From positions 248,001 to 312,000 of the forward strand of contig NC_009719.1 in the NCBI RefSeq assembly GCF_000017565.1: a stretch of 64,000 bases of DNA. The letters are read 5' to 3'. Positions within the stretch are counted from its first letter, which is position 1, and every line of letters starts with the position of its first letter. The position numbers were made by a program, and so were the translations under genes. The notes under the pieces are model-generated. The model was not told the origin of the DNA. It made no database searches and worked only from the letters and a program-made list of their open reading frames with translations. Of the stretch, positions 53,802 through 58,377 are shown one piece after another. The DNA comes from Parvibaculum lavamentivorans DS-1 (lineage in GTDB: Bacteria; Pseudomonadota; Alphaproteobacteria; Parvibaculales; Parvibaculaceae).

Positions 53802-53870
53802 ACCCCTCCCCGAAAAATTCTTCGCTACGCTCGAATTTTGTCGACCCTCCCGCAGGGGGAGGGTGGGAAG
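53802..53870 (+). repeat. Modular hairpin repeat, copy 1
   Basis: Order: a C-rich box (CCCCTCCCC), a variable hairpin (AAAATTC paired with GAATTTT), then GTCGACCCTCCCGCAGGGGG with its own hairpin and GGGTGGGAAG. The same module appears twice more within 210 bp. Confidence 0.7.
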
Positions 53871-53902
53871 AGGCGTTGGCTATCTTCCTTCCTTCTTCCT
53901 TC

Positions 53903-53959
53903 CTTCCACTCTCCCCTTGGGGGAGGGTCAAACGGCTGAAGGCCGTTTGGGGCGGGGTC
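53903..53959 (-). repeat. Modular hairpin repeat, copy 2 (inverted)
   Basis: Read on the minus strand the order is GACCCCGCCCC, a variable hairpin with arms AAACGGC and GCCGTTT, then GACCCTCCCCCAAGGGG-AGAGTG. The flanks match copies 1 and 3 but the hairpin arms are different and still complementary. Confidence 0.7.
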
Positions 53960-54010
53960 GCGGCGGGGCGGCATTTTCCATCGATAGCGGGCCGGGTGCG
54001 GCGGGGCAGT

Positions 54011-54081
54011 GACCCCGCCCCGAAATTTGTTTCGCTTGCGCTCACAAATTGTCGACCCTCCCCCAAGGGGAGGGTGGGAAG
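54011..54081 (+). repeat. Modular hairpin repeat, copy 3
   Basis: GACCCCGCCCCG, a variable hairpin (AATTTG paired with CAAATT, with TTCGCTTGCGCT in the loop), then GTCGACCCTCCCCCAAGGGG and AGGGTGGGAAG. It matches copy 1 in orientation and box order. Confidence 0.7.
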
Positions 54082-54131
54082 TGAAACCTGTCATTCCGCA
54101 AGGGGAGGGAGGAAGAAATTCGTCTCCGGCC

Positions 54132-56717: not shown

Positions 56718-56728
56718 ACGGAGACGTG

Positions 56729-57157
56729 ATGCCGAGCTGGGGGAATATTCTGAAGCGGATCGAAGCGGGCGAGATGGAGAAGGCGCCGCCGCATGTTGCC
56801 GCGCTGAAGCTTTATGCGGGCAAGCTGACCGTGCTGGAGCCGGGCCGCATCCGCTACGACTGGCCGGTCGATCCGTCCTTCCTCAATCCGGTTGCCGTCT
56901 TCGGCGGCTATCTCGCGACGCTGGCCGACCAGACCTGCTCCTTCGCGCTGATGACCATGCTGAAGGACGACCAGAATTTCACGACGTCCGATCTGCAGAT
57001 GCATTTCTTCCGTCCTGTGACGGAAGGTGTTTTGTCCTGCGAGGGGCATGTGCTGAATGTGTCGAAGACGCAGGCCTATGTGGAGGCGGTGTTCACGAAC
57101 GCGGAAGGCAAGCTGGCGCTTAAGGCAAGGGCGGTGGAGCGGATTATCGCGGGGTGA
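56729..57157 (+). CDS. PaaI-like hotdog thioesterase
   Basis: This 142-residue protein has the hotdog fold of acyl-CoA thioesterases: DPSFLNPVAVFGGYLATLAD (about 49-68) with the N-P-x3-x-G-G pattern and an Asp at the helix, then TTSDLQMHFFRPVTEGVL and NAEGKLALKARAVER. It should release CoA from an acyl or aromatic acyl-CoA. ATG 56729 follows GACGGAGACGTG; GTG 56726 is the alternative. It lies 11 bases after the lyase gene and completes the MarR-lyase-thioesterase unit. Confidence 0.88.
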   Translation: MPSWGNILKRIEAGEMEKAPPHVAALKLYAGKLTVLEPGRIRYDWPVDPSFLNPVAVFGGYLATLADQTCSFALMTMLKDDQNFTTSDLQMHFFRPVTEGVLSCEGHVLNVSKTQAYVEAVFTNAEGKLALKARAVERIIAG

Positions 57158-57186: not shown

Positions 57187-57219
57187 TATGTCACCCCCGG
57201 GCTTGACCCGGGGGTCCAG
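57187..57219 (+). repeat. 33-bp inverted repeat, left end of GIY-YIG unit
   Basis: This 33-bp sequence recurs exactly as the inverted complement at 57559-57591. Its core is itself a palindrome: CCCCCGGG, five bases (CTTGA), CCCGGGGG, flanked by GTCA and TCCAG. The form recalls REP-type palindromes. It begins 30 bp after the thioesterase stop. Confidence 0.9.
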
Positions 57220-57236
57220 GGTTCCGGGTGAGGCGC

Positions 57237-57524
57237 ATGAAGGACTACTATGTCTACATTCTTGCGAACGGACGAAATGGAACGCTCTATACGGGCGTGA
57301 CCAACGACATTCAGCGCCGCGTCTCCGAACATCGAGAGGAAATCGACAAAGGCTTCACCAGCCGTTATGGCGTGAAGCATCTCGTCTGGTACGAAGTGCA
57401 TAGCGAAGCACTGACGGCGATACAGCGGGAGAAAAATCTAAAGCACTGGTCACGCGCGTGGAAGATCGCGTTGATCGAGGAGGCGAATCCAGCCTGGCAC
57501 GATCTCTATCCGGGGCTCTTTTGA
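57237..57524 (+). CDS. GIY-YIG nuclease-family protein
   Basis: This 95-residue single-domain protein has YVYIL (5-9) and YTG (18-20) as the GIY and YIG parts, Arg27 in NDIQRRVSEH, His32, and the metal Glu65 in AIQREKNLKHWSR. It belongs to the small UPF0213/YhbQ-like group whose functions are mostly unknown. The start ATG 57237 has GAGG close upstream; GTG 57228 is an alternative. Exact 33-bp inverted repeats lie 17 bp before the start and 34 bp after the stop, making a compact unit of about 405 bp. Confidence 0.9.
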   Translation: MKDYYVYILANGRNGTLYTGVTNDIQRRVSEHREEIDKGFTSRYGVKHLVWYEVHSEALTAIQREKNLKHWSRAWKIALIEEANPAWHDLYPGLF

Positions 57525-57558
57525 GTCTTGCGAAGGGGGACGCCGCCGATGGCGGCTT

Positions 57559-57591
57559 CTGGACCCCCGGGTCAAGCCCGGGGGTGACATA
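57559..57591 (-). repeat. 33-bp inverted repeat, right end of GIY-YIG unit
   Basis: This is the exact inverted complement of 57187-57219. The symmetry goes a little further: A-rich sequence outside the left copy is mirrored by a T-run outside the right copy after one extra base. It lies 16 bp beyond the pheC stop on the other strand and might also end that transcript. Confidence 0.9.
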
Positions 57592-57606: not shown

Positions 57607-58377
57607 CTACTCCACCCACTTCCCGAAAATTGTTGCCTTCTCTCCGCTCGCCTCCATCGCTGCGAGCCATTCATCCACGCGCGCTTTCCAGGCTTCGTCC
57701 TGTGGTAGCAGGTAAGCCTTCTCCGAACGGTCGAAGGGCTCGTCGGGATGGATCGCGCAAAGCGCGGGATGCTCCTTCGCCATGATCCGCGTTTCGATGG
57801 CGTCGGTGATCATCAGGTCGGCGCGGCCTTCGGCGATTTCCTCGAAGATGGTCGCATTGTCCTTGTGGAGGATGATCGCCGCCGTCTTGATGTTCGCGCG
57901 GGTGAATTTTTCGTTGGTGCCGCCGGGATTGACGATCAGCGTCACGCCTTCGCGGTCGATCTGATCCAGGGTCTGGAAGCGGGCGGCGTCTTCGCAGCGG
58001 GCGATGGGCGTCTTGCCGTCGGTGAGGAGGGGCGTGGAGAAGAAGGCGGTGGTCCGCCGCTCCTCCGTGACGGAGATGCCGCCCATGCCGATGTCGAATT
58101 TTTCGGCGGCGAGGTCGTCCATCAGGCCGGGCCAGCTTGTGGGGACGATTTCGAGGCGGAGGCCGAGGCTGTCCGCGAGCGCCCGGGCCATGTCCACATC
58201 GAGGCCTTCGAAATGGCCTTGGGGCGCCTCCCAGGAGAAGGGCTTGTAGTCGCCGGTGAGGCCGACCCGGAGCGTGCCCGCGGCCTCGATGCGGGCGAGC
58301 GTGTCCGCCGCCGCCGGGACGAGGCCGAGAAGGAGGGCGAGGGCCGAAAGGGCGAGAAGGCGGGGCAAATGGCGCAT
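57607..58377 (-). CDS. pheC: Periplasmic cyclohexadienyl (prephenate/arogenate) dehydratase, PheC-like
   Basis: This 256-residue protein has a signal peptide (about 1-25, LLLGLVPAAADT) and a family 3 solute-binding fold. It carries blocks characteristic of PheC enzymes rather than transporters: RVGLTGDYKPFSWE, IVPTSWPGLMDDLAAEKFDI, VTLIVNPGGTNEKFTRANIK and RADLMITDAIETRIMAKEHP. PheC makes phenylpyruvate or phenylalanine in the periplasm. There are no ABC permease genes nearby, which supports an enzyme role. The cytosolic pheA is at 25820, so the genome has two unrelated dehydratases. It is divergent from ileS. Confidence 0.88.
   Translation of the reverse strand: MRHLPRLLALSALALLLGLVPAAADTLARIEAAGTLRVGLTGDYKPFSWEAPQGHFEGLDVDMARALADSLGLRLEIVPTSWPGLMDDLAAEKFDIGMGGISVTEERRTTAFFSTPLLTDGKTPIARCEDAARFQTLDQIDREGVTLIVNPGGTNEKFTRANIKTAAIILHKDNATIFEEIAEGRADLMITDAIETRIMAKEHPALCAIHPDEPFDRSEKAYLLPQDEAWKARVDEWLAAMEASGEKATIFGKWVE

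Follow-up and report, generated by a model that had tools for sequence, protein, structure and literature searches.

The REPs of the CGTC class, described by Di Nocera and colleagues, consist of a CGTC or TGTC tag, a stem of 8-9 bp, a loop of 4-5 nt and a tail that is mostly CCA, and they are known from five phyla, with one type of inverted dimer predominating (PMC3733652). These REPs are described as apparently without a dedicated transposase, and the authors suggested in 2013 that the transposase has vanished or that several transposases serve CGTC REPs (PMC3733652). The same paper equates CGTC-1 of Neisseria with dRS3, and CGTC-1 and CGTC-4 of R. conorii with RPE-6 and RPE-4, respectively (PMC3733652). 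GIY-YIG enzymes are known among homing endonucleases, and odd cases of GIY-YIG include an insertion in HsdR, described as very recent, and a fusion to TrmH (PMC1564403). No publication linking GIY-YIG to REPs, palindromes or RAYT was found in literature that comprised neither preprints nor most subscription papers; wider searches returned nothing on such a link among the matches listed, and the RepRanger paper (2025) contains no word beginning with transposase or endonuclease.

Here we analyse a locus of Parvibaculum lavamentivorans DS-1 in which a GIY-YIG gene lies between two such REPs. The window, that is the whole stretch of DNA analysed, comprises 64,000 nucleotides (contig NC_009719.1, positions 248,001 to 312,000). 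A preliminary description had suggested that this could be a mobile element in which a nuclease cuts its own palindromes; the proposal, with the cutting as a putative step, finds good support and applies well outside the locus of the window. Two aspects had been missed: the repeat is a member of a REP superfamily already in the literature for which no enzyme is known, and a different palindrome goes with a second clade of GIY-YIG proteins.

The unit and its encoded nuclease

The unit spans 405 bp (57187..57591) and consists of two inverted REPs and a single gene. In the left REP (57187..57219, forward strand; core 57189-57218) the TGTC tag points outward and the CCA tail lies on the side of the gene, and the inverted right REP (57559..57591, reverse strand; core 57560-57589) likewise has its tag outward. 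Between them, a GIY-YIG nuclease gene of 95 codons for amino acids (57237..57524, forward strand) starts with the ATG at 57237, an alternative GTG start at 57228 being present in the list of open reading frames. The gene is free-standing and intergenic. Outside the unit, a gene of the thioesterase superfamily precedes it (56726..57157, forward strand; PF03061, 60.8 bits), and a convergent gene for an extracellular solute-binding protein of family 3 follows (57607..58377, reverse strand; PF00497, 98.5 bits).

The exact inversion of the 33-bp arms claimed previously was confirmed base by base, as 57187-57219 and the reverse complement of 57559-57591 are equal at 33 of 33 positions and the match stops there on both sides. 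Read from the outside in, each arm is composed of TGTC, ACCCCCGGG, CTTGA, CCCGGGGGT and CCA. The internal palindrome noted around CTTGA holds as well: both orientations of the arm, taken as single strands, adopt the same fold with a 9-bp stem and a 5-nt loop, with hairpin energies of -12.1 and -12.2 kcal/mol (z -3.8 and -4.3). With TGTC, the 9-bp stem, CTTGA and CCA, the REP has the structure of the CGTC class.

That the sole gene between the arms encodes a GIY-YIG protein of 95 residues was also correct: the product matches PF01541 with 61.8 bits (E 7.6e-17), its sole Pfam match. Its structure model has a pLDDT of 97.5, and the nearest solved structure is UPF0213 BH0048 (1zg2, E 4.9e-5), followed by UPF0213 EF2693 and Slx1 with weak E-values (0.016 and above). 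Within the GIY-YIG motif, the residues Tyr, Arg, His, Glu and Asn, which we take to be the catalytic positions, are invariant or nearly so across 71 aligned sequences (the protein of the window and 70 relatives), in line with the intact Y/R/H/E residues reported before. Counted from Met, the conserved Glu is residue 65. Among the Pfam matches there is no known transposase domain, and with PF01541 only and a fold of the GIY-YIG type the gene of the unit does not encode a tyrosine (HUH) transposase. PADLOC gave no match for the nuclease, and a test for a restriction-modification context found no adjacent methyltransferase, the two neighbours being the thioesterase and the solute-binding protein.

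Strong purifying selection acts on the nuclease. Five of six copies from the genus have a dN/dS of 0.035-0.059 at a dS above 1.2, two of the copies in this set (L131 and L132) being near-identical copies of one element; the sixth was not computable. At that divergence the core of the left REP is still identical in L131, L132, L133 and L156. The right REP is identical in L133, while its changes in L131 and L132 preserve the pairing of the stem; L156 shows the stem-preserving changes of L131/L132 and one mismatch.

REPs and small GIY-YIG genes of the genome

A genome-wide search for the repeat, which the preliminary description had named as a check, yielded 12 copies of the 30-base REP core (up to 3 mismatches) in the single-contig genome of 3,914,745 bases, two enclosing the gene of the window and ten elsewhere, and a reversed control gave 0. 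GIY-YIG matches number seven in this genome, namely UvrC, confirmed by TIGR00194, and six small genes. An inverted palindrome pair encloses five of the six, and every pair is distinct. The pair of L003 has diverged and departs from the strict motif defined below, and upstream of L005 the outward copy lies at a distance of about 196 bp with another copy in between. The sixth small gene, presumably YhbQ-like, has no flanking REPs.

The window also holds several overlapping inverted repeats of the CCCTCCCCnnGGGGGAGGG type (53843-54118), which form a separate repeat family. A similar element, CCCTCCCCTTGAGGGAGGG, is found at the orthologue of the unit's site in one genome of the genus (G149).

Enclosure of relatives by inverted REPs

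The five REP-flanked proteins of the genome retrieved at least 581 loci, the best 80 of which were used; many of these records are bins from metagenomes, and their phylum labels are not necessarily correct. Two of the 80 were left out because of flanks below 150 bp, so that 78 with usable flanks remained. The strict motif, defined as GTC, stem, loop and CCA on both sides with the tags outward, was present in 48 of these 78 close relatives (from the best 80 of at least 581) versus 1 of 653 mock positions. An inverted match between the flanks with a score of at least 16 was found for 50 of the 78 (same best 80 of at least 581) versus 4 of 645 mock positions taken from these loci, and with a score of at least 20 for 41 of 78 (again from the best 80 of at least 581) versus 1 of 645. 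When flanks of different loci were paired at random, 17 of 379 reached a score of 20, because REP types are shared among loci. Enclosure was also seen in records titled Saccharibacteria, Parcubacteria, Bacteroidetes and Elusimicrobia (L078, L044, L068 and L047), which are metagenome bins whose labels may be wrong.

A sample of clade-1 loci from across the class comprised 68 loci, a part of the places found and inclusive of the five genes of the own genome; 6 of 29 loci were left out because their contig ended early, as was L100, which repeats the own gene L005. In this sample the strict motif enclosed 20 of 68, and an inverted match of at least 16 was found in 30 of 68 versus 1 of 175 mock positions. 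The expectation that this clade is mostly flanked by such palindromes thus stood for the close relatives, with the reservation that most of the class sample is not flanked by the strict motif. With crude calling of open reading frames, 23 of 66 GIY-YIG frames were enclosed versus 5 of 324 other frames of the same loci, the former figure being lowered because many frames, with the start codons chosen, reach into the REP; 1 of 86 small frames of other kinds was enclosed under the same crude calls.

Rfam gave no match at five loci, and among phage records there was one weak match. In Sinorhizobium meliloti (L253:1250-1500) a REP and, before it, what resembles the 3' terminus of another GIY-YIG copy stand ahead of the unit in the manner of a tandem remnant. 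Units also occur in Rhizobium and Shinella. A chromosome-size record of Neisseria gonorrhoeae filed as a plasmid (L250:1300-2030) carries a clade-1 gene flanked by copies of CCGTCATTCCCGCGCAGGCGGGAATC, in agreement with the dRS3 pattern ATTCCC(N8)GGGAAT (PMC3898611). On a Planktothrix plasmid (L252:1250-2020) a related gene has a type IIL restriction enzyme on one side and DISARM drmA on the other, and its flanks are full of another repeat resembling GTCATTCTGAGTGAAACGAAGAATCTCT.

Pairing of nuclease clades with REP types

GIY-YIG clade and REP type are paired. Among 148 loci, 145 gave proteins without stops and 69 of these had REPs on both sides. The left and right REP fell into the same length class at 64 of the 69 loci, as compared to a mean of 26.4 and a maximum of 41 in 10,000 shuffles, and their mean identity was 89% versus 55% when shuffled. 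On the protein tree, which has 94 columns and is poorly resolved, the length class of the REP changes 13 times (mean 25.7 and minimum 20 in 300 shuffles). REP similarity tracks protein similarity (Mantel r 0.28, null maximum 0.15), and some of the agreement between REP and protein would arise from common descent alone.

The same association is seen between genomes. In a sample of 142 genomes of the class from about 138 families, a clade-1 gene was present in 43 at a cut of about 95 bits, G034 and G137 with fragments only being counted as without. At least three REPs of a general CGTC pattern occurred in 30 of the 43 gene-bearing genomes and in 12 of the 99 others (p 1.7e-11). The palindrome is thus not equally spread with and without the gene; equal spread would have spoken against the original idea. 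The reversed pattern produced 8 matches in total over the 142 genomes. Exceptions exist in both directions. The REP pattern occurs less than three times in 13 of the 43 genomes with the gene, and three or more times in 12 of the 99 others, with 94 copies in G105. Among seven of these twelve that were checked, UvrC is the only PF01541 match in five (G105, G093, G094, G045 and G051), and in G002 and G081 the small PF01541 matches are of another type without the NPxW motif.

Within the genus, six genomes have the gene at an identity of at least 72%, and the REP of the unit is present there in 12, 15, 9, 5, 4 and 1 copies, respectively; in the other thirteen it is absent from eight, single in four and present six times in one. 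REP and own gene go together for the type of the window (p 0.001, 19 genomes) and for the L004 type (p 0.0006, 27 genomes). Cross pairs gave p 0.005 for REP L002 with gene L004 and p 0.10 for REP L004 with gene L002; since the gene sets overlap, the data from the genus alone are no proof of specificity.

Twenty low-scoring GIY-YIG matches chosen as a REP-free control failed in this role, as the CGTC motif was found in 0 of 20, yet 7 of 20 had strong inverted flanks. These seven, with another palindrome, belong to the second clade, whereas more YhbQ-like members of the twenty (e.g. L203, L196 and L206-L209) had no inverted flanks. Clade-2 proteins (L191, L193, L198, L199, L201 and L205) carry the motif RRPVxLVF...KGWSRAKKEAL, and their genes stand between inverted palindromes that often resemble CATCCTGAGCTTGTCGAAGGATGA. 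Gene and palindrome of this clade also co-occur across genomes: the gene is found in 13 genomes, and the palindrome CCTGAGCnnGTCGAAGGA in 7 of these 13 versus 1 of the 129 others (p 6.6e-8). Over the 142 genomes clade 1 did not predict the clade-2 palindrome (p 0.24). Clade 2 also predicts the CGTC pattern, more weakly (p 0.002), and the two clades overlap in genomes. At L300:614-1858 a clade-2-like GIY-YIG protein shares one open frame, as judged by reading, with a TrmH-like methyltransferase, and the stretch between the two parts resembles a translated repeat.

Genomic places, empty sites and putative derivatives

Judged from sequence comparison, the unit behaves as a mobile one. Its homology to L131, L132 and L133 of the genus ends within about a dozen bases of the REPs, and the surroundings differ. 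G143 has two units that are 90% alike, one at the site orthologous to that of the window and one elsewhere. The insertion site is marked by the orthologue of the upstream thioesterase gene, a close one of which exists in 23 of 27 genomes of the genus. The full unit occupies 2 of the 23 sites (G000 and G143). In G165 the site has a pair of REPs, of which the right member shows a changed stem, and the gene is nearly all gone. A REP dimer of another type is present at three sites (G163, G142 and G154), a compact palindrome tagged at both ends at two (G152 and G147), and other repeats at three (G149, G145 and G148); three sites are near-empty with 8-18 bp between the genes (G158, G161 and G157), and four have longer stretches, some with REPs (G153, G162, G144 and G156). 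The remaining five were unreadable (G150, G146, G160, G155 and G159). At another site, a unit of the window's type is found in G150, and Parvibaculum L021 has another GIY-YIG gene there together with a REP type of its own.

Sites without the unit were seen in two further groups. In Azospirillum lipoferum, sufB and sufC are separated by a unit that has REP dimers at either end, and the four relatives compared have no unit there; the empty site of B510 contains another inverted repeat and not a CGTC palindrome. Among Sphingobium plasmids, seven records of which covered at least 99% of the query, the two that were read as filled carry a unit with fnrL on one side and a regulator gene on the other. 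It is absent from TomTYG72, in its place TomTYG64 has one double-tagged palindrome, and TomTYG74 a near copy. The search for empty sites named by the preliminary description thus returned unit-free orthologous sites in Parvibaculum, Azospirillum and Sphingobium. Together with the different contexts, the two copies in one genome and the gene-deleted version, these sites support the mobile element that had been postulated. Whether the individual sites reflect gain or loss we infer from the distribution. Neither a target-site duplication nor precise junctions were seen in Parvibaculum, Azospirillum or Sphingobium, where the junctions have diverged.

REP pairs no more than 150 bp apart have their tags outward like the gene unit in 36 of 42 cases among the places listed in nine genomes. 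This orientation and the remnant in G165 point to REP dimers as units that lack the gene. With one predominant orientation of close pairs and 12 copies in its own genome, the REP type of the window also resembles the CGTC class in its dispersal.

Discussion

We consider it probable that the 405-bp stretch is a mobile unit of the REPtron type, in which a GIY-YIG nuclease dedicated to a CGTC-class REP takes the place of RAYT. Its architecture, the pairing of clade and REP, the different genomic places, the empty and gene-deleted sites and the selection on the protein were all observed. As relatives often sit inside their own matching palindromes, the GIY-YIG gene is likely the missing partner of the CGTC-class REP family. 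The nuclease probably recognises its REP in folded form and cuts there, the fold being a hairpin in DNA that is single-stranded during replication, or else a cruciform; the unpaired tag and tail would serve as signals. The unit, pairs of REPs and single REPs could then be copied or moved into new intergenic sites, insertion proceeding via replication and repair enzymes of the host. REP dimers would be non-autonomous derivatives of the unit and single REPs its remnants. To our knowledge, GIY-YIG enzymes are hydrolytic nucleases, and we know of no strand-joining step, which is why insertion would need other enzymes.

Four other explanations have to be weighed against such a dedicated nuclease. 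The REPs could be binding sites or terminators of the nuclease gene, with the chromosomal REPs as sites of cleavage or repair and their spread as a side effect. This account, which overlaps in part with the one we prefer, would agree with a fold that is closest to UPF0213 and resembles Slx1, with the strong purifying selection and with the tight hairpins of the REPs. We regard it as unlikely: the unit turns up at more than one place and orthologous sites lack it, and a self-propagating element therefore fits better than a fixed maintenance gene. Alternatively, CGTC REPs may be moved by something else, the GIY-YIG gene being cargo or a domesticated nuclease kept between them. REP-rich genomes without the gene and genes without detectable REPs both exist, as such an arrangement would allow. 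However, pairing is clade-specific at the flanks and between genomes, two GIY-YIG clades go with two different palindromes, and enclosure is rare among the other frames of these loci (5 of 324), which together make a mere passenger decidedly improbable.

The idea of a homing endonuclease, a possible variant of the preferred reading, would place the gene in its own cleavage site, a double-tagged palindrome, from where it spreads by gene conversion into intact palindromes. GIY-YIG homing enzymes are indeed known (PMC1564403), and the Sphingobium plasmid with a single double-tagged palindrome at the site of the unit, the one with a near copy and the similar compact palindromes at the Parvibaculum site in G152 and G147 speak for it. 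The empty Azospirillum sites and the three near-empty Parvibaculum sites, however, have no CGTC palindrome, and homing alone leaves unrelated new sites unexplained, so that we give this idea a slim chance. Chance proximity of GC-rich palindromes to any small gene is conceivable in a GC-rich genome with many REPs. It is hardly credible here, as mock positions, reversed patterns and other open reading frames all gave far lower numbers and enclosure recurs in the records titled Saccharibacteria, Parcubacteria, Bacteroidetes and Elusimicrobia (bins with possibly wrong labels).

For the dedicated nuclease, a wider version is plausible and somewhat favoured by us: small GIY-YIG nucleases may form a separate class of REP-mobilising enzymes, with clade 1 serving CGTC REPs, which in the published classification include dRS3 of Neisseria and RPE-4 and RPE-6 of Rickettsia, clade 2 serving CCTGAGCnnGTCGAAGGA palindromes, and REP dimers as MITE-like deletion derivatives. 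If true, GIY-YIG would represent a chemistry of transposition distinct from those of known transposase and recombinase folds and add an unexpected catalytic fold to the repertoire of mobile elements, and the origin of many short repeats would be explained. Mobile units would also account for the odd GIY-YIG fusions (HsdR, TrmH; L300). A dedicated nuclease family that changes along with its palindrome makes the question of the origin of CGTC REPs directly testable.

Comparison with known systems

Among insertion sequences with their MITEs, inverted ends, one gene and gene-deleted derivatives are found as in the unit, which likewise occurs at different places and is absent from orthologous sites; it differs in having no known transposase domain. 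At its diverged junctions no target duplication was visible. GIY-YIG homing endonucleases of the I-TevI type share the catalytic domain and the mobile context, whereas the unit has palindromic ends of its own and neither an extra DNA-binding (NUMOD) domain nor an intron or intein. Proteins like UPF0213 and Slx1 (BH0048, 1zg2; Slx1-Slx4) have the fold and the GIY-YIG motif in common with the nuclease, but the YhbQ-like sixth gene of the genome, unlike the gene of the window, is without flanking REPs. The CGTC-class REPs agree in tag, stem length, loop length, CCA tail and the predominance of one inverted dimer type; they were published as apparently without a dedicated transposase, and a gene partner is proposed for them here.

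The likeness that had been drawn is to the REPtron of GTAG REPs and RAYT, with GIY-YIG in place of RAYT, and enclosure, co-occurrence and empty sites support this analogy with reservations. In both, a gene lies between inverted cognate REPs, and cognate copies and dimers are scattered in the genome. The REPtron has the tag GTAG and with RAYT a tyrosine transposase of the IS200/IS605 type, whereas the REP of the window has the tag TGTC (TGTC/CGTC in its class) and the enzyme is a GIY-YIG nuclease. Because the unit works like a REPtron yet carries no RAYT, we class it as a REPtron variant.
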